Assembly (NCBI GenBank): GCA_944322255.1
Contig: CALUOK010000002.1
Location: 62,001 to 126,000, forward strand
Source of the DNA: Candidatus Methanomethylophilaceae archaeon
Lineage (GTDB): Archaea > Thermoplasmatota > Thermoplasmata > Methanomassiliicoccales > Methanomethylophilaceae
DNA length: 64,000 nt
Direction: 5' to 3'
This document shows, one piece after another, positions 9,241 to 53,321 of this stretch (position 1 is its first letter; the number at the start of each line of letters is the position of its first letter). The notes below the pieces were generated by a model. The model saw only the letters and a program-made list of their open reading frames with translations. It ran no database searches and was not told the DNA's origin. The position numbers were made by a program, and so were the translations under genes.

Positions 9241-9289
9241 TAGAAGAACCGATACACGTCCCGCTTAAACGCTAAAGGAATCGATAGAA

Positions 9290-11452
<2,163 letters not shown>

Positions 11453-18580: not shown

Positions 18581-18651
18581 TTTACATCGTCGACGGCGTT
18601 CTGGCCGTCGGATGCGTCCCTTCCGTCGGAACCCCCGAAAGGGGTGAACAG

Positions 18652-21780: not shown

Positions 21781-21782
21781 AG

Positions 21783-30801: not shown

Positions 30802-31043
30802 TCTCCGTCGAGGGTTGGGACGGCCTGGCACGCAGGTTCCCTCTGGAGGTTTCTCTGCGTGATGACATCCTGGCATTCATCGGTGAGCATCCGGGTTGCG
30901 GATTCAACGCGATCTGCAACCACTTCCGCCATGCAGACGCAATCGGACTGATGGACGTGCTGTTCCGTCTCAGGGAGGATGGGGATGTCGTGACGGACGG
31001 ACCGCATCCGGTCGAATCACACTATCTGAGGGAGGTTGTATGA
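30798..31043 (+). CDS. Small winged-helix protein
   Basis: An 81-residue protein; RDDILAFIGEHPGCGFNAIC then MDVLFRLREDGDVVTDGP follow a winged-helix pattern with a short wing. Probably a regulator. Overlaps the exonuclease start by 4 bases. Confidence 0.55.
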   Translation: MISVEGWDGLARRFPLEVSLRDDILAFIGEHPGCGFNAICNHFRHADAIGLMDVLFRLREDGDVVTDGPHPVESHYLREVV

Positions 31044-32831: not shown

Positions 32832-33607
32832 CGATGACCTTCGAAGAACTCAGAGAAATCTGGGAGAGGGAGTTCAGAAATCAGCGGATTCCATCGCCTG
32901 TGGAACCCACACTCTACGATGACATGAGGATCCTCTGTGAAAGGCTGCAATCCGAGTTCGTTGAAGCGGAACATAATCAGCTCGAATCCGTGTTGGACTC
33001 TGAACTCAAGCTCGCGAAGGCGAAGCGCATGGTCGAGGAGATTACCCGTATGAGGATTGCCAAGATCATGAGACTGTCTCTGGATCAGGCGATTGTAGGG
33101 CGGAGATTCGCACACCTCGATGAGCTTCCGCAGGAGGAACTCAGGATATTCGAGAGCATCGAAGGCGACATCGAATTGCTGACCGAGAAACTCGGAATAA
33201 GGGAGATTGTGGACGACATCCTCGATGAGATCGCTGATGAGCTGGATGGGATGACATACCCCCCATACATCTCCGACGACATCCGGAAGAAGGCGAAGGA
33301 CAACAACATCCAGATTGTCTATGGATGCAGTGATGATCTCATCGAGTTCGACGGCGCATTCTTCGATGAACTCGGAGCGTGGATTCCGAAGGATGGTGAT
33401 TCTCGCAGGTATGTCAGCTCCAAGGGAAGGGTCATCGATGCTGTCTGGTGTGAGGATGGCAAAACATCCTGGACATACAGAACGGACATCCGCCACAGGA
33501 CATTCCGCATCTTCGACGAAGAGGATGAGGATGATGACACACCCTACTGCATTGGAATCATCTTCAGAGCGGTCTCCGGTGAGATTTGGTCGGAGGAAGA
33601 GCGATGA
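32828..33607 (+). CDS. GINS-like protein with unusual C-terminal domain
   Basis: A 259-residue protein. The N-terminal ~120 residues look like the helical A domain of archaeal Gins51/Gins15: TFEELREIWEREFRNQRIPS, then VEEITRMRIAKIMRLSLDQ and LDELPQEELRIFESIEGDIE, matching the R-x-x-KI and late E-rich helix pattern. The C-terminal ~110 residues (VYGCSDDLIEFDG, WTYRTDIRHRTFRIFDEEDE) do not resemble the normal GINS B domain. With the element's PCNA it may tie the host CMG helicase to element replication (inference). Confidence 0.5.
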   Translation: MTMTFEELREIWEREFRNQRIPSPVEPTLYDDMRILCERLQSEFVEAEHNQLESVLDSELKLAKAKRMVEEITRMRIAKIMRLSLDQAIVGRRFAHLDELPQEELRIFESIEGDIELLTEKLGIREIVDDILDEIADELDGMTYPPYISDDIRKKAKDNNIQIVYGCSDDLIEFDGAFFDELGAWIPKDGDSRRYVSSKGRVIDAVWCEDGKTSWTYRTDIRHRTFRIFDEEDEDDDTPYCIGIIFRAVSGEIWSEEER

Positions 33608-34245
33608 GGCTCTACACCTCAACTGGGACTGTCAAGGTCCGTGACCAATGCAACGAGTATGGTGTCGGGCTCCTGATGGTCGATAAATGGCGCAACCCCG
33701 ACCAATGGCCGTTCTTCGCCGTGGACAACGGATGCTATGCAGCCCATTCCAGACAGGAGGAGTGGGACCCCAAATCGTTCCTCGGAATCCTGGCCAGACT
33801 GAGCCGTGAATCCCGCATTCCAGACTTCGTCGTGATTCCAGACAGGGTGTCCGATCCCACCAGCCTGGGATTCTCCGAGGCATGGATCCACGCTCTGAAG
33901 ACGACGTACCCCTGGTTCCCTTATTATCTGGCGGTTCAGGATGGGATGACCGAGGAATCGGTCAGACAGTTCATCGAGGCCAACGGAATCTCAGGGATCT
34001 TCGTCGGCGGATCTATGGACTGGAAGCTCAGAACCATGGGACAGTGGGCGAAATTGGCCCACCGCCTCGGTCTCCAGTGTCATGTGGGACGTGTCGGACC
34101 GGTCAGCCGTATGTTGTTGGCTGAGTACAGCGGAGCCGATTCCATCGATTCGACGACATGGGTCCAGCGTAAGGATGCTCTCCCGAAGTACATCCGTGCA
34201 TACCGTGAGCAAACATCCCTGCCATCGGAGGAGGTGGCCGAATGA
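33604..34245 (+). CDS. Putative tRNA-guanine-transglycosylase-like (DpdA-type) protein
   Basis: A 213-residue protein. FAVDNGCYAAHSRQEEWDPK, DFVVIPDRVSDPTSLGFSEA, YYLAVQDGMTEESVRQFIE and IFVGGSMDWKLRTMGQWAKL, ending HVGRVGPVSR and GADSIDSTTW, match my recollection of phage proteins of the TGT/DpdA superfamily that place 7-deazaguanines in DNA. Asp residues in the first two blocks would be nucleophile and base. No queuosine-precursor synthesis genes are seen here, so substrate and target (DNA or tRNA) are open. Confidence 0.5.
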   Translation: MRLYTSTGTVKVRDQCNEYGVGLLMVDKWRNPDQWPFFAVDNGCYAAHSRQEEWDPKSFLGILARLSRESRIPDFVVIPDRVSDPTSLGFSEAWIHALKTTYPWFPYYLAVQDGMTEESVRQFIEANGISGIFVGGSMDWKLRTMGQWAKLAHRLGLQCHVGRVGPVSRMLLAEYSGADSIDSTTWVQRKDALPKYIRAYREQTSLPSEEVAE

Positions 34246-34553
34246 CATGGGGGGTCGAAACCCAACGTAGTGAGCTCGGCGAGAAGATCGTCATCCATGC
34301 CCCTGGGATGGATTACGACCTGGACCCGTCGACTGCCATGGATTTGGTCCATCGGATGATTGTCGCAGTGTCTCAGGCCCAACATGGAGCGGGGAGATGC
34401 GGAACATGTGGTGGAACGACCGTGCTGATCCGTAAATATGGAAGAGAGGAACTCTACAGGATCCAATGTGCTGGGTGCGGGAACCGCTCCGAGTACATGA
34501 CGGTGGAGCAGCTCAAGGCGATCGGGTGCATGCCTGTGGGGATGAAACCATGA
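34242..34553 (+). CDS. Zinc-ribbon protein
   Basis: A 103-residue protein with an N-terminal helical part and a C-terminal ribbon CGTCGGTTVLIRKYG and CAGCGNRSEYMTVEQL. Similar in style to several neighbours. Overlaps the transglycosylase-like gene by 4 bases; possible partner or nucleic-acid-binding subunit, by position only. Confidence 0.5.
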   Translation: MTWGVETQRSELGEKIVIHAPGMDYDLDPSTAMDLVHRMIVAVSQAQHGAGRCGTCGGTTVLIRKYGREELYRIQCAGCGNRSEYMTVEQLKAIGCMPVGMKP

Positions 34554-34873
34554 GCGGAGGTGCTCTGACGGACATGGAGTACGACCTTTTCCGTCTGGAT
34601 GACTGGGCTAAGAAGATCGATGGGGAGAATCCTCTGCTGGCCGAACAGATGCATGACCTGTACAACCTCCTGCACGTGTATGACGAGTACATGTCTGGAG
34701 ACGGCGACGAGGAATCCGTCGAGAGTGCATGGACGGAGTATCGCTCCAAATGGCTGAACATCTCATCTGAACAACTTGAAGGCCACATCTTCGAAAACAT
34801 CAGAAAAGAGGTGGAGTCCTACATCGAATCGTTCAGACTGGGACACGGCAGGAAACAGGGGTGGCAGAAATGA
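34550..34873 (+). CDS. Unknown helical acidic protein
   Basis: A 107-residue helical, acidic protein (EYDLFRLDDWAKKIDGENPL; HIFENIRKEVESYIESFRLG). No domain recognised. Short gene in the coupled array. Confidence 0.5.
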   Translation: MSGGALTDMEYDLFRLDDWAKKIDGENPLLAEQMHDLYNLLHVYDEYMSGDGDEESVESAWTEYRSKWLNISSEQLEGHIFENIRKEVESYIESFRLGHGRKQGWQK

Positions 34874-35112
34874 TGATGCCACTCGCCGGCAGGAAGACGT
34901 CGGAACCTGTGAAGCCTGTGAAATGTGGCCCCATCTGTGTGACAACCGAGATCACTCCGAATGGCGGACTGCCAATGATCGTCCTTCCTGGACTGGTCAG
35001 GGCCGTTCTTAGCCGGAAGGAAGCAGAGAGCATCCGTGATGGAATCGGCAGGATGCTCACGGACGAGTCCGTGGTTTGGGCCGAGGAGGTTGATTGGAGG
35101 TCGGTATTATGA
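34870..35112 (+). CDS. Unknown 80-residue protein
   Basis: The sequence PVKCGPICVTTEITPNGGLP then LSRKEAESIRDGIGRMLTD gives a short strand-rich part and one helix. No family recognised. ATGATGATG at 34,870 offers three possible starts one codon apart. Confidence 0.45.
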   Translation: MMMPLAGRKTSEPVKPVKCGPICVTTEITPNGGLPMIVLPGLVRAVLSRKEAESIRDGIGRMLTDESVVWAEEVDWRSVL

Positions 35113-35249
35113 TGGCTCAGATGGCCGGCTGGCTGATCGGAGGAATCATTGCCCTCCCGTTTCACACGATGTGTGGAATCGTCATGGCAGCCACGGGTGA
35201 ACGGAAACAACTTGGAAACCGCTTGATCGAAGAGGAGGAGCAATCATGA
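35109..35249 (+). CDS. Small membrane protein, 46 residues
   Basis: Starting ATG 35109, the first ~30 residues (MAGWLIGGIIALPFHTMCGI) form one hydrophobic membrane segment followed by a charged tail ending LIEEEEQS. It overlaps both neighbours (ATGA at 35,246). Possibly a small holin-like or regulatory membrane peptide; not recognised. Confidence 0.45.
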   Translation: MMAQMAGWLIGGIIALPFHTMCGIVMAATGERKQLGNRLIEEEEQS

Positions 35250-35431
35250 TGGGAATCGGAACGGAGATGATGCGCATCGAGGAGATGCGGATGGAATGCA
35301 GGATGACGGCCAGCAGTCTGGTCGGTCTGACCAGGTCGCTGGGAGACAGGTGCGGAGGGGTGGATCCTTCAGTCACCGATGAGCTCAGCGACATCGAGGC
35401 CAGACTTGAAAGACTCATGGAGGGGTTCTGA
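35246..35431 (+). CDS. Unknown Met/Glu-rich 61-residue protein
   Basis: A helical peptide (MRIEEMRMECRMTASSLVGL; ELSDIEARLERLMEGF) likely forming a coiled coil. No family. Overlap ATGA upstream; the downstream ATG shares the last stop base. Confidence 0.45.
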   Translation: MMGIGTEMMRIEEMRMECRMTASSLVGLTRSLGDRCGGVDPSVTDELSDIEARLERLMEGF

Positions 35432-35985
35432 TGCCCGTGTCCATCATGTCCTCCCAGCTCTTCATGAACGCATTCAACACGGGAGACTTCACCGGATGGC
35501 CTGAATTCGTGAAGTTCGATGACGGAACCCAGGGCTCCATCCTCCCTCTGTCCGTCAAGGGGACCACTCGCAACGTCTACTCCATCATTGCCAAGTCGGA
35601 CGACCCCGAATCCAGGTGTGTCTTCCTGCTCGAAGTGAAGCAGATGAGGGATGAGCTCCAGCACCTACAGAACAGGTTCCCGATCAAGGATGCCTTCTTC
35701 AACGACGAGGCTGGCCAAGAGCGTCTGGGTATCGAGATCGATTATGGCGAGCACATCGTGATCGACGCTGTCGCACGTCCGGCGATGAAATTGGAGGGCA
35801 TGGAACCTCCTGACCAGGGCCCGAACGAGGAGGATTGTGACGACCCCCCGATGGATGCATACGAGGGGACGTCGTTCCTGTCAAGAATGGCCGAGAAGAC
35901 GAAATTGAGGAGGTTGAGCAGAGAGAACACCAGACATGCGAGGGAGAACATGCCGCCCCAGGATAGAACGCGGATCAAGCTGTGA
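35431..35985 (+). CDS. Unknown protein, last gene of the long operon
   Basis: A 184-residue protein with a mixed N-terminal domain (FVKFDDGTQGSILPLSVKGT; FLLEVKQMRDELQHLQNRFP), an acidic Pro-rich linker, and a basic C-terminus (RRLSRENTRHARENMPPQ). Not recognised. It ends the uninterrupted set of overlapping genes that began at 17,354; a repeat-and-hairpin region follows. Confidence 0.5.
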   Translation: MPVSIMSSQLFMNAFNTGDFTGWPEFVKFDDGTQGSILPLSVKGTTRNVYSIIAKSDDPESRCVFLLEVKQMRDELQHLQNRFPIKDAFFNDEAGQERLGIEIDYGEHIVIDAVARPAMKLEGMEPPDQGPNEEDCDDPPMDAYEGTSFLSRMAEKTKLRRLSRENTRHARENMPPQDRTRIKL

Positions 35986-36084
35986 TGACATCCGATGCGT
36001 ACATTACATATCGGGACATCACTGCTATCGATCAATCTCAGGAGCGGTCATCAGCCTCGTGACCGCTCCGCAAACCCCAACATC

Positions 36085-37209: not shown

Positions 37210-38865
37210 ATGAACGCAACAAAAACGGCCGTAAACAGGGCATTCGCCATCATCGCAGTGATGGCACTCATGCTCTGTTCCTTCGCCGCGATCTTCGCGA
37301 CGGAGTCGGAGGCTGCCGATTACAGCAGTCTCCAGCAGTCCGGCACGGATGTGGACCAGGTATACACACTGGACATTTCCACCGGACAGCAGTTTGAGTA
37401 TCAGAACATCGCAACCAATCTCGACGGATACGGATCCATCTCCTACACCTGGACCGGAACTGCCGCCGATGAGACCGGCACCAACGGAATCAAATGGGAC
37501 GAGCGCGCGAAGACCCTCTCCGGAACCTTCACCTCTGCTGGAAACAAGACTGGAGTCCTCACTGCGACCTGGACATCCCCCGACAGCACCGGAGTCACCC
37601 AGAAGGCGACCCAGACCATCAACTTCAACGTCACCTCTGCCATCGAGATCGCCACTTCCGTCACTGGGTACGCCCAGGTCGGATCTGATTCCGATGACAC
37701 CACGATGACCATCACCTTCACCGGTGGAGGCAACAACATCCAGATGACTGGTGGCACCCAGAGTGGCGTACCTTTCGCTGCCACCCTCAGCGGTAACACC
37801 ATCACCATCAAGCCCACCGATACCCTCACATCCACTCATGTCCAGAGCAGCCCCTACGAGCTCAACCTGACCGTGGCCAACCAGGACACCCAGGACCAGG
37901 ACAGCGTCGAGGTCCTCATCTACGTGTTCGATAAGATCGGCATTACCAACCCTCAGACCCACTTCTACACCTACGAGGGCGATGTCGCATCCTCTATCAT
38001 CGTCAACGGAATCGACGTCTCCATCAACTACGGGACCGACAACTCCGACGATACCACCGTCACCGACAAGACCGTAGTCTTCTCCCCCAACTCTGGCAAC
38101 GTCATCTCTGGAGACCTTGACGCCAACAACCACCTGACCGTCAACGTCACCAACGGATTCACCGACGCCGGGGACCTGACCGACGGACAGAACAGCAAGG
38201 ACTACACCGCCAGCGTCACCGTGAACGGATCCATCCCCTCCAGCACCGGAGGAACCGGACCCACCACCAGCACCGCCAGCGTCGACTTCGTCGTTACCGT
38301 CTACAAGTCCTTCCAGTTCACCTCCGCTCCCGCCGTTACCGACATCACCGTTACCAATGTCGGAACCAACTCCAACACCGTCCTCCTGTCCTCCTACATC
38401 TCCGGAGCCAACAGCGTCGTGTTCGAGTGGGGAGACGGATACCAGACCACACCTATGACCAACGCTGAGGTGTCCGCCAACTACACCTCCAGCCACACCT
38501 ACGCCGCACCCGGAACCTACCTCGTCACCATCTACGCCACCAACGACCAGGGAACCACGACCTCCAAGGTCATGTACAGCGTCGGAGAGGATGCAGGAAC
38601 CGGAACCGATGAGCCTGAGCAGCCTGCCGAGGGAGACGGAGAGGGAGAGCAGTCCTTCTTCGACGAGCACGGATACCTGTTCATCGTCTTCATCGTACTC
38701 GCTGCTGTGTGCGTGTTCGCTTACGTCGGACCCTTCCACATCCAGCACCCCCTCGTCATCATCGCAGCCGTCATCTGTGCGATCCTCGCCGTCCTGACGT
38801 TCGTCTACGTCGACTTCGGCGGAATCGCTGATGCCATCGGAGACCTGTTCAACAGCGAGGAGTGA
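37210..38865 (+). CDS. Secreted PKD-domain surface protein with two-helix C-terminal anchor
   Basis: A 551-residue protein: signal peptide (NRAFAIIAVMALMLCSFAAI) to about residue 36, Ig-like beta domains through ~420, a PKD domain near 420-465 (VVFEWGDGYQTT ... TYAAPGTYLVTIYATND), an acidic linker (EPEQPAEGDGEGEQ) and two C-terminal membrane helices (FIVFIVLAAVCVFAYVGPF; LVIIAAVICAILAVLTFVYV). Thr/Ser/Asn-rich, so likely glycosylated. It is paralogous in layout to 44,402-45,922; both are followed by a transglutaminase-like gene. Confidence 0.75.
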   Translation: MNATKTAVNRAFAIIAVMALMLCSFAAIFATESEAADYSSLQQSGTDVDQVYTLDISTGQQFEYQNIATNLDGYGSISYTWTGTAADETGTNGIKWDERAKTLSGTFTSAGNKTGVLTATWTSPDSTGVTQKATQTINFNVTSAIEIATSVTGYAQVGSDSDDTTMTITFTGGGNNIQMTGGTQSGVPFAATLSGNTITIKPTDTLTSTHVQSSPYELNLTVANQDTQDQDSVEVLIYVFDKIGITNPQTHFYTYEGDVASSIIVNGIDVSINYGTDNSDDTTVTDKTVVFSPNSGNVISGDLDANNHLTVNVTNGFTDAGDLTDGQNSKDYTASVTVNGSIPSSTGGTGPTTSTASVDFVVTVYKSFQFTSAPAVTDITVTNVGTNSNTVLLSSYISGANSVVFEWGDGYQTTPMTNAEVSANYTSSHTYAAPGTYLVTIYATNDQGTTTSKVMYSVGEDAGTGTDEPEQPAEGDGEGEQSFFDEHGYLFIVFIVLAAVCVFAYVGPFHIQHPLVIIAAVICAILAVLTFVYVDFGGIADAIGDLFNSEE

Positions 38866-38958: not shown

Positions 38959-40536
38959 ATGAACAAGCCATTGGCGGTCGTCATCGCTGTTATCGCCGTC
39001 GCTGTTATCGCCGTGCTCGCCATTAGCGGGCTGGGCTCCGACAACGGCGAGACAGACACGCCCGGTGAGACCACGGACACCATGGGAACGATCTCCGTGG
39101 GTCCGTTCGTCAACAACATCGACATGGGTTCTCTCGAACCCGTGTCCGGATCATACGACATCTCCGATCCGGACAACCCGACCATAACATACCGTGCGGT
39201 TGCCAAACAGGGATTCCAGTTCCTCTGCTGGACGGATTCCGAGGGCAACTACATCACCGACAACCCGTCGATGACCTTCCCTGCCGACAGGGACAGGGAT
39301 TCGGTTGCCGTGTTCATCGAGGGCGGAACCAGGTCCGTGGAGATTCTGTGGTACGTCCCGGTGTTCGGAGAGAACGGCGTGACGTTCGGGGATGAACCTG
39401 AGATGATGAATATCTCGATCTCATCCTTCGACTGGTGCGCATCCATCGAGGATGGGGCCATCCAGAGGATGTCCACCGTGAGGTCCCCGTCCCCCGCAGC
39501 TCTGCTGACCGATGATGGCGTCATCGCCGACATCGTGAGTGAGCTGGACAGGTACACCGTCGGACTGACCAACCTCCAGAAGGCCATGGTCGTCCTGGCG
39601 TTCGTCCAGGATGCCATCGACTACGAGACGGACAAGAACCTCTACAACCAGGAGGAGTTCTGGGCCACGCCCATGGAGTCGCTGTTCCTCGGATACGGCG
39701 ACTGCGAGGACGGGGCGATACTGTTCGTGTCCATCGCATCCGCGATGGGAATCGACTGTGGGTTCGTCACGTTCGCGTCCGATCGTGCCGGAACCGAGGG
39801 CTCCGGACACATGTCCATCGCCATCGCCCTGAATGACGGCGAGGACATCACCGGCGGGAACGTCGCCACGTTCGTCGTTGACGGCATCACATACGCCTAC
39901 GGCGAGACCGCAGTGGACCCTGTGACAATCGACAACGTCCACCCGATGTTCGGTGTCCTGGGGAGCTCCTATGCCATCACCGATGGGACCTGGACCCATG
40001 TGGTCTACTCCGACGGAGTGTTCACCGCAGAGTCCACGCTCTCCATCGGGAACGGCGACAGGCCCACGGGACACGTCATCTACGGAACCGACTTCACCAA
40101 CCCTCCCGCGATCCACATCAGGGTTGGGGATGGGTTCAGCTACACGCCTGGAACCACCCTTCCCGCTGATTTCGTCGTCTCCGGCGATGGACTCGTCGGG
40201 AACGGAGGGTTCCTGGCATGGGATTCCGAGACTGGGACCCTGAGTGGCATCGCCTCCGACGTGGGAACGTTCACCGTCCTCATCACGGCGACGTCCACTG
40301 AGGGTCCCGTCCAGACCGCTGTCCAGACCGTCACTCTGATTGTGGAGGCTTCCGACGGTGTCGGGAGCTCCGACCACCATCTGATCTACGGAGACGGCGT
40401 CTGGAACGTGGAATCCACCGCACCTGAAGACACTGATACGGAGATCGGCGACGGAGAACAGGACGACACGATGCTCTACATCGTCCTCGGACTGGTTACT
40501 GTCGCTCTCATCATCATAGCCTGGAGGGTCATCTGA
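38959..40536 (+). CDS. Membrane-anchored transglutaminase-like protein with Ig-like domain
   Basis: A 525-residue protein. N-terminal membrane segment (VVIAVIAVAVIAVLAISGLG), then a transglutaminase/cysteine-protease-like core: LTNLQKAMVVLAFVQDAIDY, catalytic-type Cys249 in FLGYGDCEDGAILFVSIAS, His284 in GHMSIAIALND, and an Asp in the following strand. A putative Ig-type domain (FSYTPGTTLPADFVVSGDG) follows and a C-terminal helix (MLYIVLGLVTVALIIIAW) ends it. It may cross-link or process surface proteins, such as its upstream neighbour (inference). Paralogous to 45,935-46,996. Confidence 0.7.
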   Translation: MNKPLAVVIAVIAVAVIAVLAISGLGSDNGETDTPGETTDTMGTISVGPFVNNIDMGSLEPVSGSYDISDPDNPTITYRAVAKQGFQFLCWTDSEGNYITDNPSMTFPADRDRDSVAVFIEGGTRSVEILWYVPVFGENGVTFGDEPEMMNISISSFDWCASIEDGAIQRMSTVRSPSPAALLTDDGVIADIVSELDRYTVGLTNLQKAMVVLAFVQDAIDYETDKNLYNQEEFWATPMESLFLGYGDCEDGAILFVSIASAMGIDCGFVTFASDRAGTEGSGHMSIAIALNDGEDITGGNVATFVVDGITYAYGETAVDPVTIDNVHPMFGVLGSSYAITDGTWTHVVYSDGVFTAESTLSIGNGDRPTGHVIYGTDFTNPPAIHIRVGDGFSYTPGTTLPADFVVSGDGLVGNGGFLAWDSETGTLSGIASDVGTFTVLITATSTEGPVQTAVQTVTLIVEASDGVGSSDHHLIYGDGVWNVESTAPEDTDTEIGDGEQDDTMLYIVLGLVTVALIIIAWRVI

Positions 40537-40687
40537 TGATCCTCTGCGACGTGTATCCTGTTCATCCATGCGTCATTGGCAGCGCGAGCGGTGCACGTCG
40601 CTACATCACTGTCCAAGAACCCGAAGATGGGTTCAAGGATGGGCCCATTCACATTTCGCTCCCCTATAGGATCGTTGGCGTCGTCTA

Positions 40688-40801
40688 TGTCGGTGGCAAC
40701 TCGAACTCGAATTCTTCGAACGCTCCGAACTATGGATTGTCCTATGCTAATTGCAACAACGATTTGTCGAACTCGAACTCGAACATAGGGGGTCGCCTGG
40801 C
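40688..40801 (+). repeat. Diversity-generating retroelement template repeat (TR)
   Basis: 114 bases that match 43,180-43,293 except at 15 positions, every one an A here. Of 28 template A, 15 are changed and none of the 86 other bases is. The codons are mostly AAC/AAT separated by TCG, and AAC can never mutate to a stop. The last 19 bases (ACATAGGGGGTCGCCTGGC) are identical and probably act as the initiation-of-mutagenic-homology end. It lies in the 407-base non-coding gap before the reverse transcriptase. Confidence 0.95.
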
Positions 40802-40943
40802 GATTGTTCTCGAAGACCGTCCCGGTCTCACATCTATCACAGTGATTCGGGCCCCGCGTGAATGCGAAATACAAGAAAAATCCAAACCTGGGCTAGTAGC
40901 GTTGTTAGTGACCGTCCGGGTAGAGAACAAAGGCTATGGTTCT

Positions 40944-42029
40944 ATGCCCAATCGTATCGGTGAACTCAAAGCAAAGATAACTTCGATGGATAACCTCGAA
41001 TCTGCTGCTGACATAGCATGCAAATCTCGTAAAGACAAGCTGGAAGTAGCCAGGTTCGAGGCCGACCGTAAGAATAAGTTAGAACTGCTCCAGAAACAGG
41101 CCCGCAGTGGAACCATTCCGGTTCCAGAGTACAGGTTCTTCACAAGGGTAGAACGTGGAAAGGTTCGCGACATTGCCGATCTTCCATTGTATCCGCACAG
41201 GATATGGCATCAGGCATTGGCACAGGTCCTGGAACCACTCCTGGATTCCAGGATGATCTATCAGTCGTTCGCATCTCGTGTGGATCACGGAACTCAGAAG
41301 GCGGTCGTGCTTGCATGGAACTATGTTCAGCACGAGAAAATCAAATATTGTCTGTCTCTGGACATCAAGAAATGTTATGAATCTACAGACAAAGAGGTTC
41401 TGAAGAGGACGCTCAGACATTACTTGAAGGATGATTGGCTCCTCCTCATGCTAGACCACATCATCGACGAATATCCCCGTCCAGGGATTTCCATCGGTGA
41501 CAGACTCTCACCGCTGTTTTGCAATCTGATGCTGACACCTCCGGATCATTACGCCAAGGAGACGCTTCACTGCCACTGCTATATCGGCTATGCCGACAAC
41601 AGATTTGTTTTCGGCAATTCGAAACAATGGCTGAAGAAGATTGAGGTTGAACTCGAAGCCCAGTTTAACGCCATCGGCTACACGATCAAACCGAACTGGG
41701 TGATTGCGGACCTCAGAACTGAAGGTGTGGATTTCCTCGGATACAGGATGTTCAAGACCCACATCCTTCTGAGAAGGAGAACCAAAATCAGACTCAGAAG
41801 AGCGATGAATGAGATTAGGAAGAAGCTGGAGTCGGGGCAGTTCCCCGACGATCACGACCGTGGGGTATTGGGTTCCTATTTCGGGGTCCTGAAGTGGTGC
41901 AACGGCTACAACCTGTTCCGTCGCTACATCTGGCCTGTCAAGCGGATGCTGGACGATTACGACCGCTGGCTCGACGGTGCCAGGGCATACCGCGCGTTCG
42001 TGAATCTCAATTCTGAGGTGTACTTATGA
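40944..42029 (+). CDS. Reverse transcriptase of a diversity-generating retroelement
   Basis: A 361-residue RT copying the template RNA with adenine-specific errors. Palm motif A is LSLDIKKCYESTD (Asp140); motif 4 is ISIGDRLSPLFCNLML; the active-site box is GYADNRFVFGNS (216-219), i.e. YADN rather than YADD; GVDFLGYRMFKTHILL is motif 7-like. SFASRVDHGTQKAV near residue 110 resembles the finger motif of DGR and group II RTs. ATG 40944 is chosen because the frame upstream runs through the template repeat, and starting there gives a normal RT length. The stop overlaps the target gene start (ATGA). No separate Avd accessory gene is visible; the N-terminal ~50 residues are a charged helix. Confidence 0.92.
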   Translation: MPNRIGELKAKITSMDNLESAADIACKSRKDKLEVARFEADRKNKLELLQKQARSGTIPVPEYRFFTRVERGKVRDIADLPLYPHRIWHQALAQVLEPLLDSRMIYQSFASRVDHGTQKAVVLAWNYVQHEKIKYCLSLDIKKCYESTDKEVLKRTLRHYLKDDWLLLMLDHIIDEYPRPGISIGDRLSPLFCNLMLTPPDHYAKETLHCHCYIGYADNRFVFGNSKQWLKKIEVELEAQFNAIGYTIKPNWVIADLRTEGVDFLGYRMFKTHILLRRRTKIRLRRAMNEIRKKLESGQFPDDHDRGVLGSYFGVLKWCNGYNLFRRYIWPVKRMLDDYDRWLDGARAYRAFVNLNSEVYL

Positions 42030-44347
42030 ACAAAATGAACAGCCGTCGCAAGATGATGGCCGCGTTCGCGGTGTTCCTGTCCCTCGCCGTGCTCTTCGCT
42101 CCGATGGCGATGGTCGACGAGGAGGCTGACGCCGCCTATGGTGAGACCTACACCTACACGATCTCATCCAACGGCACCATCTCCGGCTACAACCCCATCG
42201 GCACTTCGTCGTCGAGTGGGAGCTATACGAGTGTGAACGGCACGAACAGCGGTTCGTGGGCCTTCAACGATGAGGGCTATGGCCCGTTCAACTCGTTCTA
42301 CGCGGCATTCGATCCCGCACAGAACAACAAGATGATAGGCCATCTGGATCCGGATGACCTGACCAAGCTGGTGGATGGGACCAGCATCGCCGGACAGGAC
42401 TACAATATCATGTGGTGCCTTCCGACGGTCTACTGGAAGACCAGCGGTACGAGTCTCGTTCTCACCAACGACCCGAACGCAGGCGGAACCGCCTACGCGC
42501 ACACCATCAACGGACACGTCTACAGCTACATCGGAATCGGAGTCTACGAGGCTTCGAAGCAGACGATCGGCGGGCAGACGATCCTCACATCCTTCACCGA
42601 TTCCACGCCCACCGTCAACCAGACCAGAGCCACGTTCCGTGACCAGGCCAACAACCAACTCGTCAACACCGACGGCAACGGCAACAACGGCTATGCGATG
42701 CTCTGGAACTTCTACCAGTGGGAGCTCTACAAGTATTGCGCCCTCGCGGTCATGGGTTCCTGGAACTCCCAGGCGGTTGCAGGTAACGGAAACGTCTACG
42801 GCGGAGACTACACCCACACAACTGGAGATCATGACAAGTCCGGACCGTATGCCGGAACCAAGGGAAGCAGTACCACATACTACAAGGACCCTGTTAAGGT
42901 CTTCATAGAGAGTGCCTGGGGCGGAGCCTACGACTTCGTGGATGGAGTTGTTGTCAGTGCGAAGGAATACTACATCGACCAGTCGGCTGTACCCACCGAT
43001 AAGACATCGGGAACATACATCACCAATCCCAGCGGAACACTACCAGGAAGCAGCGGATATGGATCCAATCCATCGACGGAGGCAGCGATATGGGGAATGC
43101 CGACCGCAACAGGTGGCTCAGCTTCGTCTGGGCTTTACGACTATGTCTATTCCGATAGTGGAAGCAATTACGTCGTCGTTGTCGGTGGCCGCTCGTACTC
43201 GACTTCTTCGGTCGCTCCGTACTATGGGTTGTCCTTTGCTAATTGCTACTACGCTTTGTCGTACTCGCACTCGTACATAGGGGGTCGCCTGGCCTTTGTT
43301 TTCGACGCCGATCCGGCGTCGGGCAACACCGTGACCTATGACCACAGTGCCCTTACCAGCGCAGGTGGTAACGCGAGCGGCCTTGCCGCGAGCGTGCTCG
43401 TCCCCATCGACGAGTCCTACCAGCTCCCCAACCTGGGAACCGTGGGAGAGTTCACTCACATCGGATGGGAGGTCAACGGAGTCACCCAGCCCGTTAACTA
43501 CACCATAACGCCGACCGATAACATGACGGTCAAATCGTTGTGGCGTCACAACTCAACCATCACCTTCGACCACAGTGCACTTGAGGACTACCACCAGTCT
43601 GCCAGCGGACTGGCGACCAGCTCCGGCGCACAGCCTGACGGAACCCCGTACACCCTGCCCAGCATGGGTGTGATCGGCGGTTACACACACTCTGGATGGT
43701 ACATCGACGGTGTGTTCTACGCTGTCGGTGCTCAGTACACCCCATCCGGCAACGTGACCGCCTACTCCGTCTGGCAGCAGCCGATGATAACCATGACGTT
43801 CGTTGTCGAGGGCGAGACCTACGCCACGCTGAAGGTCCCTGGAGGATCCAGCGGAATCGTGTTCACGCCTGTCATGGTCGACGGCGCGTTCGAGGGATGG
43901 TTCTACGATCCCGGCTTCGACACCAAGTACGATGCGACTCAGGCGTTGGACTCCAACACGACCCTGTACGCCAAGGGCGTCCCGCCCCTGGAGTTCACCT
44001 CCGTGCCTACGGCCAACGCCAGCATCACTGCGGTCAACGGCATCGCCGACCTGTACTACTTCGACGCCACCGACAGCACCGGAAAGTACAGCGTGCACTG
44101 GGATTTCGGAGATGGCAATACCAGCGACGATGTCCTGGCCTACAACTCGTACAGCGAGCCCGGAGTCTACACCGTCACGCTGACCGTCACCAACGCCGAC
44201 GGGGTCTACGCCGTGCAGACCTACACCGTTGACACCACAGAACCCGCAGAGGACGATGGGGACGACGGGAACAGGGACATCCTGCTCTACGTCGCCATCG
44301 CGATCATCATCGCGGTCGGAGGAATCGTCGTAAGACGCTTCCTCTGA
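42026..44347 (+). CDS. Retroelement target: hypervariable C-type-lectin-like surface protein
   Basis: A 773-residue membrane-anchored protein. Signal peptide (AAFAVFLSLAVLFAPMAMVD), then a lectin-like domain to ~425 whose end VVVGGRSYSTSSVAPYYGLS ... YIGGRLAFVFD (386-428) is the variable repeat, fitting the GG-x-GGRLAF ending of CLec/FGE-like DGR targets. Then two InlB-type repeats (about 430-595), a third partial one, a PKD domain near 685 (VHWDFGDGNTSDDV) and a C-terminal helix (ILLYVAIAIIIAVGGIVV). It displays a variable ligand-binding face outside the cell. The target gene lies downstream of the RT in one operon, the reverse of the common order. Confidence 0.9.
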   Translation: MNKMNSRRKMMAAFAVFLSLAVLFAPMAMVDEEADAAYGETYTYTISSNGTISGYNPIGTSSSSGSYTSVNGTNSGSWAFNDEGYGPFNSFYAAFDPAQNNKMIGHLDPDDLTKLVDGTSIAGQDYNIMWCLPTVYWKTSGTSLVLTNDPNAGGTAYAHTINGHVYSYIGIGVYEASKQTIGGQTILTSFTDSTPTVNQTRATFRDQANNQLVNTDGNGNNGYAMLWNFYQWELYKYCALAVMGSWNSQAVAGNGNVYGGDYTHTTGDHDKSGPYAGTKGSSTTYYKDPVKVFIESAWGGAYDFVDGVVVSAKEYYIDQSAVPTDKTSGTYITNPSGTLPGSSGYGSNPSTEAAIWGMPTATGGSASSGLYDYVYSDSGSNYVVVVGGRSYSTSSVAPYYGLSFANCYYALSYSHSYIGGRLAFVFDADPASGNTVTYDHSALTSAGGNASGLAASVLVPIDESYQLPNLGTVGEFTHIGWEVNGVTQPVNYTITPTDNMTVKSLWRHNSTITFDHSALEDYHQSASGLATSSGAQPDGTPYTLPSMGVIGGYTHSGWYIDGVFYAVGAQYTPSGNVTAYSVWQQPMITMTFVVEGETYATLKVPGGSSGIVFTPVMVDGAFEGWFYDPGFDTKYDATQALDSNTTLYAKGVPPLEFTSVPTANASITAVNGIADLYYFDATDSTGKYSVHWDFGDGNTSDDVLAYNSYSEPGVYTVTLTVTNADGVYAVQTYTVDTTEPAEDDGDDGNRDILLYVAIAIIIAVGGIVVRRFL
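43180..43293 (+). repeat. Variable repeat (VR) of the retroelement
   Basis: Aligned to 40,688-40,801 at an offset of 2,492. Changes are A to T (9), A to C (3) or A to G (3), giving codons such as AAC to TAC (six), CAC, CGC and GTC. Flanks diverge immediately outside (for example CTTTGTT versus GATTGTT after the shared end), defining the copied segment. Confidence 0.95.
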
Positions 44348-44378: not shown

Positions 44379-44401
44379 ATCAACCGGGACGGGAGGTGAA
44401 A

Positions 44402-45922
44402 ATGAACGGAAATGCAAGCAGGATGGTCTCCGTGATGGCAGTCGTCGCGCTGGTGCTCTGCTCCGGAGCGATCGTCTTCTCCCCCGATGCCGACGCGGTC
44501 GACTCCGAGGGGGAGGTCTACACCCTGGAGATGAGGACCGGGCAGACGTGCATCTACGTGCCGACCACCAACCTGGACTCCGAGATCACCGTCACGGGAT
44601 CCGAAGGGGTCACATGGGACGCTGAGAAGGGGACCATGAATGCGACGTTCGGCTCCATCGACACATCGGGCGACCTAAACGCTGTCGTCAAGGCTGTGTG
44701 GACGTCCACCGTGGACCCGACCGTCACCCAGTCCGCCGAGCAGACGATCATCTTCAAAATCTACGGCCATGTGACCATCGACGGATACTACGAGAGCAGC
44801 GTGTCCAAAGGGGTCATCGGCGGACAGACGGCTGGAACGGTCGTCTATTCCCCGACCATCTCTCAGGCCACGTCCGGGACCGAGACCGTCGTGACATGCG
44901 ACATCCCTGAGAACGACTACATCGGATGGGACGCCGAGAACAGGCGCGTCGTGATCGTCGAGGACATTCCGGAGGACGTCGATGCGTTCTCCGTCTCCTT
45001 CGACATCGTCGCCACCAACAGCTCCCTCTCCGAGGGCAGCTCCCTGGCAGATGAGACCGCCACCGTGCATGTGACCGTCGGATTCGGGCAGGACCTCACC
45101 ATCACGTCCCCCGACATCATCGAGACCTACGTCGGATGCGACGACGCGGGCAGAAACACATACGTCGTCCAGACCAACTACGATGATGCCAAGTTCGTGT
45201 CCGTCACGGGCATCCAGATCGGACAGGTCGTCCCCTCCGTTGCGGGACTCGTCGCCTCCAAGGGCGACGGGACGGTGACGTTCGACCCCGACGCGGTCGA
45301 GTTCCCCGACAGACCCGTGAGGCCCTACTACCAGGACTACTCATTCAGCGTCACCGTTTCCGGAACATCCGCCGACGGGACCGAGGTCCAGGACTCGAAG
45401 ATCGTCACCCTCCGCGTATGGGCGGGACTGAACTACATCACCATGCCCAGCATGGAGGATGTCATCGTCCAGCCCGATGAGGGGAACAAGCTGAGCGTCA
45501 CCGTCTCCGCCCTGATCGGCGGGGCCGACGGCATCTCCTTCGACTGGGGCGACGGTTCCGACGTCTCCGACCAGAAGACCAGGGACGACACCACCGCTAG
45601 GTACAGCGCATCCCACGACTACGAGCTGGAGAACGACTACCTGATAACGGTCAGCGCATACAACTCCAGCGGGGAGAACGTCGTCTACATCATGTACGAC
45701 ACGACCACGGGGCAGTCCTATGAGACCGACCCGCCGACGCCCGGACAGCCGGAGGGACCCTCTGGCGACGAGGGATACGACCTCTGGTGGCTCCCAATCC
45801 TCTTCGGGGTGCTGGCGGTCGTCTTCGCTGTCGCGTTCGCCGTGAGGCCCGGAAACTACGCTCTCGTGGCTCTCGCCGCGATATGCGCCCTGGCAGCGGT
45901 GGCGTCCTATTTCCTGATGTGA
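44402..45922 (+). CDS. Secreted PKD-domain surface protein, paralogue
   Basis: A 506-residue protein with signal peptide (MVSVMAVVALVLCSGAIVFS), Ig-like domains, PKD near residue 375 (ISFDWGDGSDVSDQ), a Pro/Gly linker and two C-terminal membrane helices (WWLPILFGVLAVVFAVAFAV; YALVALAAICALAAVASYFL). The N-terminal module (YTLEMRTGQTCIYVPTTNL) mirrors that of 37,210 (YTLDISTGQQFEYQNIATNL), so the two are duplicates. ATG 44402 with SD GGGAGGTGAAA; GTG 44396 is also in frame. Confidence 0.75.
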   Translation: MNGNASRMVSVMAVVALVLCSGAIVFSPDADAVDSEGEVYTLEMRTGQTCIYVPTTNLDSEITVTGSEGVTWDAEKGTMNATFGSIDTSGDLNAVVKAVWTSTVDPTVTQSAEQTIIFKIYGHVTIDGYYESSVSKGVIGGQTAGTVVYSPTISQATSGTETVVTCDIPENDYIGWDAENRRVVIVEDIPEDVDAFSVSFDIVATNSSLSEGSSLADETATVHVTVGFGQDLTITSPDIIETYVGCDDAGRNTYVVQTNYDDAKFVSVTGIQIGQVVPSVAGLVASKGDGTVTFDPDAVEFPDRPVRPYYQDYSFSVTVSGTSADGTEVQDSKIVTLRVWAGLNYITMPSMEDVIVQPDEGNKLSVTVSALIGGADGISFDWGDGSDVSDQKTRDDTTARYSASHDYELENDYLITVSAYNSSGENVVYIMYDTTTGQSYETDPPTPGQPEGPSGDEGYDLWWLPILFGVLAVVFAVAFAVRPGNYALVALAAICALAAVASYFLM

Positions 45923-45934
45923 GGTGATAGAAGG

Positions 45935-46996
45935 ATGAACAGGATTCTGATCGCCGTCGCCGTCGCGGTCCTCGCCGTCATCGGAGGGTACGGCGTCGTG
46001 TCCAATCTGGGGGACGGGGAGGGAGCGGGCTCAGGGGTGTCCGGCACGGACACCACGCCGCCTGAGTCCAGCGACCCCGTCCTGGGACACGTCGAGGTGG
46101 TCGCCGAGTACGGCAGCGAGATCGTTGTGAGGGCCGTCCCCGCCGACGGTGCGTCGTTCTACGGATGGTTCTCCGGTGATGCGATGGTCTCGGACCGCAT
46201 GTTCGAGACGTTCGACATAGGAGCGGTGGACGGCGTCCAGGCCGTCTTCAACGAGGGTTTCACGAAATCCGTCGAGTACGCATGGGAGATACCCATGTTC
46301 GCCTCCGACGGCTCCCTGTCCGGCATGACCAGGCATGAGGTCGTCTCCATCAGCCTGTGGAGCGGGGACTACTGGTCCACCGTCCAGGACGATGGAAGGC
46401 TCAGGCATGCCACCTATGCGGATCCGATGCCCGTGTTCATGCTCTCCGACAGCGATGCAGTCGATCAGGTCGTGGAGTACCTGGAACCTCTCGTCGATGG
46501 AATGACGAACCTCCAGAAGGCGACGGTTCTGGCCTACTTCGTGCAGGACGTCATCGACTACGAGTCCGACTCGTCCCAATATGGAGTGACCGAGTTCTGG
46601 GCGACTCCCGACGAGACGCTCTACACCGGGCACGGGGACTGCGAGGACACCGCCACGCTCTACGTCAACATCGGAGCCCGCATGGGTCTGGATGTTGGGT
46701 TCGTGGCCTTCGAGGACGCGAGGATGGGACACATGTCTGCGGCGGTCGCCCTGGATGACGGGGAGACCGCTCACGGCAACGCCGTCTTCGAGGTCGACGG
46801 GGTCCGCTACGCCTACGTGGAGACGGCCATCGACAACGCCCACAGCGATGTCGGGCAGCTCTCGTCCGCGTACCGCATAACCGACGGCAACTGGACGCGC
46901 GTGACGTATGATTCCGAATCTGGGGAGTACATCGGGGACAGCACCGTACCGATCGGCACGGGGACCGTCACCGGGGCTCCGATGATCTACGGATGA
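45935..46996 (+). CDS. Membrane-anchored transglutaminase-like protein, paralogue
   Basis: A 353-residue protein: N-terminal membrane helix (LIAVAVAVLAVIGGYGVVSN), an InlB-like segment (SEIVVRAVPADGASFYGWFS), then the transglutaminase-like core with MTNLQKATVLAYFVQDVIDY, Cys236 in GHGDCEDTATLYVNIGARMG and GHMSAAVALDD. It lacks the Ig-like domain and C-terminal helix of its paralogue at 38,959. Probably acts on the surface protein encoded 12 bases upstream (inference). Last gene of the retroelement operon. Confidence 0.7.
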   Translation: MNRILIAVAVAVLAVIGGYGVVSNLGDGEGAGSGVSGTDTTPPESSDPVLGHVEVVAEYGSEIVVRAVPADGASFYGWFSGDAMVSDRMFETFDIGAVDGVQAVFNEGFTKSVEYAWEIPMFASDGSLSGMTRHEVVSISLWSGDYWSTVQDDGRLRHATYADPMPVFMLSDSDAVDQVVEYLEPLVDGMTNLQKATVLAYFVQDVIDYESDSSQYGVTEFWATPDETLYTGHGDCEDTATLYVNIGARMGLDVGFVAFEDARMGHMSAAVALDDGETAHGNAVFEVDGVRYAYVETAIDNAHSDVGQLSSAYRITDGNWTRVTYDSESGEYIGDSTVPIGTGTVTGAPMIYG

Positions 46997-49202: not shown

Positions 49203-52200
49203 ATGGATGAGCATCGCAGGATGCTCCTCTCGGCTCTCGCCGTCCTCGCGTTCCTGGTCTCCGCGTTGTCGGTCGGCATCGTCCTGATCGACGATGCGGA
49301 CGCCGCAGGGACATGGGATGGGGGGAACCCAAGCGGGAGTTCCGCCGCCAATCCTTACGATTCGGTCGACATCGACATATCGGGTACGAATGTGCCTGTT
49401 CTGAGCGATGTCTATGTCGCCGTCGGAGCCAGCGTCAGCATCACCGGATGCACGGACAGTTGGTCCCACGGCAGCTCGAACTATACCTACAACTTCACCA
49501 GCGTCACGTCCGGGTACGGGCTGTCGGTCAGCACATCCGGAGACACCTCCGTTTCCGGAACGATCAGCAAGGCGGGGAACATAACCGTCTCCTACCATTA
49601 CGTTCAGGGCGGTACATACCCGAAGGATGAGACCAGATCGTTCGTCATCCACGCCGTCGAACCCGATGATAGCGGTGTCCAGTCCATCAAGATAACGGGA
49701 TCCATCTCCAGCGGATCGATCTCCACCGGCGGTTCGATTACCCTTACCGCCACCACATCCCCTTCGACGGCGGACAACCGCCATGTGAGCTGGAGCATCA
49801 GTTCCGGTTCTCAGTACGGTGAGATCACCAGCACCAGAGATACCTCTACAGGTGGTACGTGTGTCGTCAAGGGCAGTGAGCCCGGAAGGATCGTGGTGCT
49901 CTGCGAATCCGAGGACGGATACGCCTCCGAGACCTTCGTCGTCACCGTGACCGCCAGGTTGGTCACGTCCATCGCGGTCTATCAGGGATTCGCCGACGGC
50001 GAGGACCTGATCGTTACAGCCGATGCGTCACCTTCTAGTGCGTACAACACGAACATCACATGGTCCGTGGTCAAGGGCAGCAGCCTGGTCACTCTGTCGT
50101 CCAGCTCCGAGTACACATCCGACGGCGAGATCAGGATGTCCCCCACCCACTCCGGCGGAGGGGAGGTCACGCTCCGCGCGACCGCCGCCGACGGTTCGGG
50201 GGTCTACAAGGACCGCACATTCTACGTCGGATGCGCGTCCTTCGATGCCAACGGAGGCTCCAACGCCCCCTCCGACGTCTACAGGATAAGCAGCACGAAC
50301 AACATGATGGGCTACCTTCCCGACAAGGAACCCATCAGGTCCGGTTATGCCTTCATGGGCTGGTGCACGGACAAGGACGGAAGCGGGATGATCTACAACG
50401 CAGGAGGATACGCCTCGCTGAGGGACGGCACCACGTACTACGCGATATGGGGCCACGAGACCAAGATCACCTTCAACGTCCTGTACGGAACGGGAGGTCC
50501 GTCCAACGAGACCGTCATCGTCATGGATGGCGAGACCGACTGGTTCTACATCCCCAACGGCGACGGCGACATCCCGACCCGTCCCGGATACACCTTCCTC
50601 GGATGGTCCGACAGCTCCAACGCCTCCACCGCCAAGTACGAGCCCGGAAGCAGGTTCGAGATCGAAGGCGGGGAGACCTACGACCTCTACGACGTCTGGA
50701 CGATCACCGAGAACGAGTACCACCTGGCCTACGACGCCAACGGGGGAATCAACCCTCCGACGACCCAGAACGGGACCAACTACGGCACCGAGAACGAGTA
50801 CACGTTCGTCGTGACCTCCTCCGAACCCACCCGCGAGAGCCACAGGTTCCTCGGATGGTCCACCACGTCCACGGGCGGTGTGGAGTACGAGGCTGGAGAT
50901 ACCATCACAGTCCCCATCGGGACCAAGACCCTGTACGCCGTCTGGCAGGAGATCCACGTCTTCAAGATCGCCTACGATGCGAACGGAGGCACGGGAGCTC
51001 CCACTCCGACACCCGACACCTGGGAGACCACTGGGGACAGCATCCAGATCATCGTGTCCAGCGTCAAGCCGACATGGGACGAGTTCCACAGGTTCCTGGG
51101 ATGGTCGACAAACCCCGAAGCCACGACCGCGGACATCCTCTCCGGCTCCAGCTACACCCTGACCCAGACGGGGACGACGACCCTGTACGCGGTATGGGAG
51201 GAGATCGAGGGCAACGTGTTCACGCTCCACTTCGACCTCCAGGGCGGTCTCGTCGGGCCGGAGGACGTCGTGTCCGTCACCGTCCGTGACGAGACGACCG
51301 TCTCCATCCCCGCTGACGTCCCGACCTGGGACGAGTACCGCCTGTTCCTCGGATGGGCGGTCGAAGCCGATTCGGACACCGTCACATACCAGCCGGGAGC
51401 CCAGATCACCCTGAGCGAGTCCGACACCACTCTGTACGCCGTCTGGCAGAGGCTCCCGATGCCCTGGACGCTCCACTTCGAGCTCGGAGGAGGCTCATGG
51501 GGTTCCGTCGACCAGATGGGGACCTCCGCAGAGGAGACGTTCACCTTCACCATCCCCGATGTCGTCCCCACCCTGGACGGATTCGGGTTCCGTGGTTGGG
51601 CCGTCACCGACGGGGGTTCCGCCGAGTATCAGCCCGGAAATGCCTTCATCGCCACCGAGCAGAACACCACCCTGTACGCCGTGTGGGAGGAGCTGGACCT
51701 GTTCACCCTCCACTTCGATGTCGGCGACGGTTCTCCCGTGGAGAGCCTGACCGTCTACTCCCTGGATTCGTGCAGGTTCGTGATCCCCAGCACCATCCCG
51801 ACTCTGGACGGATACCTGTTCCAGGGATGGGCCACGGTCGAGGGCGGAGCCGTCGACTGCCAGCCCGGACAGACCATCACCGTGACCAGCCAGAGCACAA
51901 CCGTCCATGCGGTGTGGATCGAGAGGCCGGAGTTCGTGGAGTTCACGCTCAGCTTCGATGTCGGAGAGGGTTCCGGAGGGCCTTCGACCATCCGCGCCAC
52001 GACGTCCGAGCTCAGCCACGAGTTCACCATCCCGTCCGCCGTCCCCACTCTGGACGGCCACGGGTTCCTCGGATGGTCCCTGAGCGTCGGAGGGGACGTG
52101 GACTATCAGCCTGGAGACAGGATCACCGTGTCCACCCCCGCCACGACCCTCCATGCGGTCTGGATCGATGAGTCGCAGCTCAACACGTTCACCCTGAGAT

Positions 52201-53321
52201 TCAGCATCGGGGATGGCGTCGGGGACTTCGAGCCGATGACCGCCAGCGGTGTCGACAGCACCCACACGTTCGTCATCCCGTCCGATTCCCCCACCAGGAG
52301 CGGGTTCGTCTTCATGGGCTGGGCCGTGCCGTCCAACCCGTCCGAGGTCGTCTACGCTCCCGGAGACAGGATCACCGTCTCCACCGCGACATTCACCCTG
52401 TACGCCGTGTGGCAGCCTGAGAGCATAGTGTTCACCCTGTCATTCGATGCTGGAGACGGAGCCAGCGGAGCTCCCGCGACGCTGACCTCCATGAGCACCG
52501 GGTCCGTGCACACGTTCACCATCCCGTCCGACGAGCCGTCCCTGGACGGCTACAGGTTCATGGGATGGTCCGCCACATACGGCGGTTCGGCGGACTACCA
52601 GCCCGGAGACATCTACGTGTCCGGTGTGAGGGACGCCACCCTGTATGCGGTCTGGAAGCTCGTGAACGACGGCGCGATCCACATATCCAACGCCCCCGCC
52701 GACAGGACCGATGTGAACTCGCAGTTCACCTACGAGGTCACGATCGATGCGGACGTCCCGTTCACCGTCGCCATCGGCGGAACAGCCGCCGACTGGCTCA
52801 GCGTGAACGGTCACACCATTCGTGGCACGCCTCTGATCCCCGGAACGTACACGCTGGTCGTCACCGTCACCGACGGGGAGGATTACAAGCCCTCCTCCGA
52901 GACGTTCACCATCCGTGTGATGGAGTCGGACATGGAGTACCGTGTCGAGTTCGTCACGTCGGGAGGCTCCGAGGTCGAGGACCAGTGGATCCAGTCCGGT
53001 GGGACCGCCACCGCACCCGCCGATCCCGTCAGGGACGGCTTCAGGTTCGTCGGATGGTACACCCAGGACGGAGCGAAGTACGACTTCACCCAGGCTGTCG
53101 GAGCGGACATGACGCTCAGGGCGGCATGGGTCTCCGACGGTTCTTCCGGAGCCGACGGCGACGGGGATGGCGATGGAGAGGGCATGACGGTGTCCGCGTG
53201 GATGATCGTCGGCGTTCTCACCGCAGTCCTCGCGGTCGCCGCTGTCTGCACGAAGAACCCGATTGTCGCGGTCCTCGCCGTCGTGTCGGCGGTCGCCACC
53301 GTCGGACTGTACCTTCTGTAA
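49203..53321 (+). CDS. Giant InlB-repeat surface protein
   Basis: A 1,372-residue secreted protein. Signal peptide (MLLSALAVLAFLVSALSVGI) to ~40; two Big_2-like Ig domains (about 145-345); ten tandem InlB/Listeria-Bacteroides repeats of ~75 residues (about 345-1160), each ending in a GW-x-x ... TLYAVW block; an Ig-like domain (~1165-1245); an eleventh canonical repeat; and two C-terminal membrane helices (WMIVGVLTAVLAVAAVCTKN; VAVLAVVSAVATVGLYL). Probably an adhesin or cell-surface stalk. Monocistronic behind its own promoter module. Confidence 0.8.
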   Translation: MDEHRRMLLSALAVLAFLVSALSVGIVLIDDADAAGTWDGGNPSGSSAANPYDSVDIDISGTNVPVLSDVYVAVGASVSITGCTDSWSHGSSNYTYNFTSVTSGYGLSVSTSGDTSVSGTISKAGNITVSYHYVQGGTYPKDETRSFVIHAVEPDDSGVQSIKITGSISSGSISTGGSITLTATTSPSTADNRHVSWSISSGSQYGEITSTRDTSTGGTCVVKGSEPGRIVVLCESEDGYASETFVVTVTARLVTSIAVYQGFADGEDLIVTADASPSSAYNTNITWSVVKGSSLVTLSSSSEYTSDGEIRMSPTHSGGGEVTLRATAADGSGVYKDRTFYVGCASFDANGGSNAPSDVYRISSTNNMMGYLPDKEPIRSGYAFMGWCTDKDGSGMIYNAGGYASLRDGTTYYAIWGHETKITFNVLYGTGGPSNETVIVMDGETDWFYIPNGDGDIPTRPGYTFLGWSDSSNASTAKYEPGSRFEIEGGETYDLYDVWTITENEYHLAYDANGGINPPTTQNGTNYGTENEYTFVVTSSEPTRESHRFLGWSTTSTGGVEYEAGDTITVPIGTKTLYAVWQEIHVFKIAYDANGGTGAPTPTPDTWETTGDSIQIIVSSVKPTWDEFHRFLGWSTNPEATTADILSGSSYTLTQTGTTTLYAVWEEIEGNVFTLHFDLQGGLVGPEDVVSVTVRDETTVSIPADVPTWDEYRLFLGWAVEADSDTVTYQPGAQITLSESDTTLYAVWQRLPMPWTLHFELGGGSWGSVDQMGTSAEETFTFTIPDVVPTLDGFGFRGWAVTDGGSAEYQPGNAFIATEQNTTLYAVWEELDLFTLHFDVGDGSPVESLTVYSLDSCRFVIPSTIPTLDGYLFQGWATVEGGAVDCQPGQTITVTSQSTTVHAVWIERPEFVEFTLSFDVGEGSGGPSTIRATTSELSHEFTIPSAVPTLDGHGFLGWSLSVGGDVDYQPGDRITVSTPATTLHAVWIDESQLNTFTLRFSIGDGVGDFEPMTASGVDSTHTFVIPSDSPTRSGFVFMGWAVPSNPSEVVYAPGDRITVSTATFTLYAVWQPESIVFTLSFDAGDGASGAPATLTSMSTGSVHTFTIPSDEPSLDGYRFMGWSATYGGSADYQPGDIYVSGVRDATLYAVWKLVNDGAIHISNAPADRTDVNSQFTYEVTIDADVPFTVAIGGTAADWLSVNGHTIRGTPLIPGTYTLVVTVTDGEDYKPSSETFTIRVMESDMEYRVEFVTSGGSEVEDQWIQSGGTATAPADPVRDGFRFVGWYTQDGAKYDFTQAVGADMTLRAAWVSDGSSGADGDGDGDGEGMTVSAWMIVGVLTAVLAVAAVCTKNPIVAVLAVVSAVATVGLYLL

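Follow-up and report, generated by a model that had tools for sequence, protein, structure and literature searches.

Does a methanogenic archaeon carry a diversity-generating retroelement (DGR) that rewrites part of a cell-surface protein, and can such an element run on a reverse transcriptase (RT) with an altered active site? Both questions are raised by a locus in the window, the 64,000-nucleotide stretch of DNA analysed here; its coordinates are used throughout, and the cassette and operon features lie on its + strand. The initial annotation had reported two gap-free 114-base segments whose differences all fall on adenines of one copy, and this was confirmed. The template repeat (TR; 40688..40801, with 28 A) and the variable repeat (VR; 43180..43293, corresponding to target residues 385-423) align ungapped over 114 bases with 15 differences, 15/15 at a TR adenine (8 A>T, 4 A>C and 3 A>G) and 0/86 at non-A positions. 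For segment ends that were picked to fit, with the first mismatches falling at the expected DGR boundary, the probability that 15 randomly placed differences over 114 positions all fall on the 28 As is 1.8e-11. The VR sits in frame within a coding gene and is directly followed by an imperfect repeat (43294..43302; TR GATTGTTCTCGA, VR CTTTGTTTTCGA) resembling the IMH/IMH* pair of BPP-1. A search of the window and its flanks gave no further VR, and the genome yielded no third significant TR/VR copy except a short piece of the TR of a second DGR, which lies on another contig. Repeats inside surface-protein genes are common here, so an ordinary duplicated segment, diverged by mutation and selection, might be considered. 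However, the confinement of every difference to A, and the recurrence of the A-only pattern at 15 further loci adjoining a DGR-type RT, leave this explanation with a negligible probability.

The RT gene claimed to lie between the two repeats is indeed there (40944..42029, 361 aa), with its best start at ATG 40944, homologous to the starts of other DGR RTs; no gene separates TR, RT and target. The closest solved structure by sequence is the BPP-1 DGR RT (bRT), and the structural model (pLDDT 92.4) has 8ub7 as the top solved structure in the fold comparison (TM 0.80/0.86). In a tree of 82 RTs, the window RT forms a group (100/98) with those of two other species, next to five more TR-RT-target loci. 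Its best phage match, the vir215 RT, comes from a Methanomassiliicoccales virus that has an A-only TR/VR pair too; public records already contain, in vir215, a related viral DGR RT of the same order. A scan of viral contigs with the window RT as sole query gave no close relative, and a match to phrog_1423 represents a broad RT family and has little weight for DGR assignment. By sequence, tree and predicted fold, the enzyme is of the DGR type. Motif 4 reads IGDRLSP (Pro190, 41511-41513) and not the DGR-typical [IVL]GxxxSQ, yet all loci of the same clade (clade A, below) carry SP in this motif and show A-only footprints. A group II intron RT was considered and rejected: TIGR04416 scores 83.6 bits against a cut-off of 300, and motif 4 begins with I and is not QGxxxSP. 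No Avd-like gene was found nearby; a genome search with PF05635 was silent, as it also was in controls.

The RT frame is open from 40536 to 42029, through the TR. In three species, its first ATG overlaps the stop codon of the upstream gene, and indels in the TR-containing frame keep the reading frame. Despite this, we do not claim that the TR is translated together with the RT, since the substitution pattern is unlike that of a coding region. The extension upstream of the RT (40536..40943), open in the three species, shows little amino-acid constraint: differences by codon position are 7, 7 and 11 over 62 codons, and dN/dS upstream of ATG 40944 outside the TR is 0.45-0.97, versus 0.13-0.18 in the RT. 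The even spread over codon positions and these dN/dS values make RNA more likely than protein as the product of this part. The spacer between TR and RT (40802..40943) changes slowly at the base level, without codon-position bias (dS 0.25 in the spacer region versus 0.90 in the RT), and probably belongs to the TR RNA instead of encoding protein. The stability of its predicted fold is not above that of shuffled sequences (z -0.57), and an Rfam search of the window returned tRNA only.

The target gene (42026..44347) encodes a 773-aa secreted, anchored surface protein with the VR in its middle. Its N terminus resembles a signal segment, a hydrophobic anchor lies at the C terminus, and the protein carries Flg_new and PKD domains. 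These features, together with the gene content of the operon, support the earlier proposal that the VR lies inside a surface protein of a surface-protein operon. The N-terminal 430 aa, which precede the Flg_new and PKD domains, are 31-34% identical to tail-type DGR targets. We do not claim a C-type lectin fold for the target, because its model (pLDDT 41.6) is too poor for a fold search and its profile has no match in the PDB or Pfam. The operon has six genes: a secreted PKD-like surface protein (37210..38865), an anchored transglutaminase-like protein (38959..40536, whose stop codon is the one overlapped by the TR-containing frame), TR-RT, the target, a secreted PKD-type surface protein (44396..45922) and a second transglutaminase-like protein (45935..46996). 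The last two genes are paralogues of the first two, the pair being a diverged copy. The same operon is found in genome G026 (locus L029) and on two contigs of genome G028 (L014 and L250) at 54-93% identity, and in all three genomes a giant Flg_new protein comes after it. Directly 3' of the operon in the window lies a 1372-aa protein with ten Flg_new repeats (49203-53321) that is conserved in the sister species.

A perfect 8-bp hairpin, CGACGCCG-ATC-CGGCGTCG (43303..43321), lies 3' of the VR within the target coding sequence and is kept in the sister species. BPP-1 requires such a hairpin region after its VR (PMC3240598). Most VRs in our survey have a perfect short hairpin at their 3' side, and stems elsewhere still pair with other bases (GACGGCCG/CGGCCGTC, GGCCGCCG/CGGCGGCC, GGGCCG/CGGCCC and GGCGCG/CGCGCC). 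In G027, a genome without a DGR RT, an orphan target homologue (L249:16264-18156; 52% identical) has lost the hairpin.

Upstream of the operon, a block of lower G+C (window 17345-36000) contains resolvase, C5 and N6/N4 DNA methylase, PCNA-like and polymerase-exonuclease-like genes, and part of it is syntenic beside the same operon in G026. The cassette could thus be part of an adjacent integrated mobile element, with the target serving that element, in attachment or entry, and not the cell; the relatedness of the target's N-terminal part to tail proteins of proviral DGRs points the same way. However, no capsid, portal or terminase was found in the block, and the operon encodes membrane-anchored surface proteins of the PKD, transglutaminase-like and Flg_new types and is followed by more surface-protein genes. 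Moreover, the RT-less G027 retains its target homologue near PKD and transglutaminase-like genes. We consider service to a mobile element possible but rather doubtful, and continue with a target that serves the cell.

How unusual is such a cassette among related archaea? A genome of the same genus, encoding an RT 81% identical to that of the window, is classified as Candidatus Methanomethylophilaceae, order Methanomassiliicoccales, in agreement with the order first suspected. A scan for A-only TR/VR pairs found eleven further loci first and four more after widening, in 9/31 genomes of the genus, with A-only runs of 64-146 bases and 10-28 A changes. Since the scan demands that there be no non-A mismatch, the zero non-A count is by construction; the result draws its meaning from how long the runs are and from the lack of any hit when about 25 related non-DGR RT loci were scanned in the same way. 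Clade A (the window, L014, L029, L030, L031, L032, L046 and L047) has the order TR-RT-target, an IGxRxSP motif 4 and large surface proteins with an internal VR as targets. Clade B has the order target-TR-RT, mostly SQ in motif 4 and tail-like targets, and in L033, L034 and vir215 (L045) a tail-chaperone-like gene lies 3' of the RT. The N-terminal domains of clade A and clade B targets are 31-34% identical, so the cassettes of cells and viruses have a common origin. L031 and L032 (in G009 and G011) have identical TRs and RT genes 99% identical in DNA, with targets about 15% different and differing VRs, a pattern of cassette transfer or recombination.

The window genome also holds a second DGR, L038, on contig C1 of G000 (TR 9450-9579, VR 9746-9875 and RT 8213-9313, all on the - strand). 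It has 17 A-only differences over 130 bases and a provirus-like order, and its RT reads YLDN and LGNVTSH in motifs C and 4; a viral-contig scan with this RT as sole query gave no close relative. DGRs related to that of the window are thus common in the genus, with tail-gene versions sitting in its proviruses, and for this reason we regard the kind of system as known. That the cassette itself is a real, cellular archaeal DGR of this kind we consider highly likely. The YADN motif described below, the SP in place of SQ, the second DGR and the vir215 precedent were all absent from the initial annotation.

The window cassette resembles the BPP-1 DGR (bRT, 8ub7) in RT fold and sequence, in its A-only TR-to-VR changes and in the imperfect 3' repeat and hairpin after the VR. 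It differs in gene order (TR-RT-target versus target-avd-TR-RT), in motif C (YADN versus YMDD) and motif 4 (SP versus SQ), in that no avd was found in the window, and in its target, a cell-surface protein with the VR mid-protein. With vir215 (NC_092586) and the proviral DGRs of the same genus (L033-L036), it shares the order of archaea, the A-only footprint, a related target domain and an RT 33-38% identical, but these elements have the order VR-TR-RT, YMDD and SQ motifs and a tail-gene target with a tail-chaperone-like gene after it. Closest in layout are L030, L031, L032, L046 and L047 from the same archaeal family, which share the TR-RT-target order, an IGNRxSP motif 4, an internal VR in a large surface protein and, in most, the same type of hairpin; unlike the window RT, theirs have YMDD, YIDD or FMDD as motif C and Phe or Tyr at position 144. 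In archaea, DGRs have been described before, from an ANME virus and from intraterrestrial archaea (Paul et al. 2015, PMC4372165), though apparently not in methanogen surface operons.

What sets the window RT apart is its active site. Asp140 (41361-41363) and Asp218 (41595-41597) are present, but residue 219, normally Asp, is Asn (41598-41600), so that motif C reads YADN and holds one Asp where YxDD-type RTs have two. YADN is also found in L014 and L029, and YLDN in L038. The place of the second motif C Asp is held by Asp in 77/77 other DGR RTs, and among 180 distinct RTs from viral contigs and relatives, every other RT retains it. The Asn codons are AAC, AAC and AAT in the window, L014 and L029, and AAC in L038; the first three come from separate assemblies, which makes a sequencing error unlikely. 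Both Asn lineages also have Cys at position 144 (41373-41375 in the window), which is Tyr or Phe in 77/77 other DGR RTs; elsewhere in the whole RT set, Cys144 is confined to RTs that have group II intron motifs. In the tree, L038 falls with the YMDD RTs L034/L036 (98/82), whose C-terminal end it shares. The RTs closest to it have identities of 43% and 42%, and its long branch makes its placement less sure. An AU test rejected a single clade of the four Asn RTs (p-AU 0.0008), for a group defined after the motif had been seen and with about 340 columns screened. Judged from these sequences, the Asn change arose twice, each time with Cys144, a combination present in no other DGR RT surveyed. Three viral DGR RTs (L114, L181 and L182) have NMDD in place of YMDD.

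Are the Asn enzymes active? Mutation of the motif to SMAA abolishes the activity of the BPP-1 RT (PMC3240598), and the HIV-1 RT double mutant D185N+D186N is inactive (PMC5498913), although neither equals a single D-to-N change in a DGR RT. In line with these lethal mutations, the window cassette could be a recent fossil, in which Asp219Asn killed the RT and the footprint is older than the change; L038, with its further odd residues (LGNVTSH) and long branch, would suit such a history. However, Asn is common to three species whose RTs are 59-81% identical, each with its own A-only TR/VR pair of 114-123 bases, as the comparison of VRs in related genomes proposed earlier has brought out. Between the window and L029, the TRs have 16 differences at which neither carries an A, and at 16/16 of these the VR of either locus agrees with its own TR; the VR likewise follows its own TR at 17/17 positions for L014/L029 and 2/2 for window/L014. 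This agreement is partly by construction, because the A-only segments were found by demanding no non-A mismatch, and the weight lies in the persistence of long A-only runs despite TR divergence. Since all three species have Asn, the simplest history is that the VR was rewritten from the TR after the Asn change.

Selection on the genes agrees with this. The RTs are under strong purifying selection (dN/dS 0.126, 0.178 and 0.172), while dN/dS in the target is 0.064 before the VR versus 1.41 within it (39 codons). The share of TR As that are changed is 58% with Asn RTs and 63% with Asp RTs. A different error spectrum was considered and not upheld: the counts of changes to C/G/T, 14/25/30 for Asn and 41/101/59 for Asp RTs, do not differ significantly (chi-square p 0.07). 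Purifying selection on the RT and TR/VR matching after speciation argue that the Asn enzymes are active and not dead, and since the change also arose twice with the same partner change, we regard a fossil as improbable. A second alternative is that the Asn RT has no activity or serves a structural role, the TR being copied in trans by a different RT of the cell. G028 does have a YMDD DGR RT as well (L036), but a search of the window genome (96% complete) gave no YxDD DGR RT: its two DGR RTs are YADN and YLDN, and the strongest of its other RTs shows the motifs of group II introns. In G026, the YADN enzyme is the only DGR RT. In addition, a non-catalytic RT would not need the conserved Asp140 and Asp218, so that copying in trans appears very improbable.

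The DGR reading first proposed is borne out by the A-only footprint, the DGR type of the RT, the boundary pattern and the hairpin downstream of the VR, and by TR/VR pairs that have diverged together in the sister species. In the mechanism we envisage, the RT would make a cDNA copy of the TR RNA, erring at A, and this cDNA would replace the VR in the downstream surface-protein gene, helped by the 3' match and the hairpin after the VR, so that a single patch is altered on an anchored surface protein that probably binds a ligand. The RT would work with Asn219 for the second motif C Asp, keeping Asp140 and Asp218 as metal ligands, and the Tyr/Phe144-to-Cys change near the active site may be linked to Asn219. 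What was observed is the anatomy and homology of the cassette, its A-only footprint, the selection on its genes and, across three species, TR/VR divergence that matches; from this we infer that the Asn enzyme is catalytic, that a cDNA step takes place and that the target binds. This whole explanation, a cellular DGR that diversifies a surface protein with an Asn219 RT, is very probably correct. We favour with moderate confidence the broader proposal that DGR RTs twice evolved a working Asn active site tied to Cys144 and still make adenine-mutagenised cDNA. The DGR kind being known, the novelty lies in the motif C change and its Cys144 partner in RTs that look active. No report of YxDN DGR RTs, or of DGRs in Methanomethylophilaceae, was found in the open-access literature searched.

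Some RNA-virus polymerases have a GDN motif, which is loosely comparable to YxDN. YxDD is treated as fixed in reverse transcriptases, and its mutants serve as dead controls; if our proposal is true, the YxDN enzymes would represent an alternative catalytic set-up for an RT. Natural, apparently active YxDN enzymes, with the VR as an in-genome record of their products, offer a way to examine how the second Asp contributes to speed and to adenine infidelity. More broadly, within one methanogen order, viral and cellular DGRs of common origin would diversify tail and surface proteins side by side.
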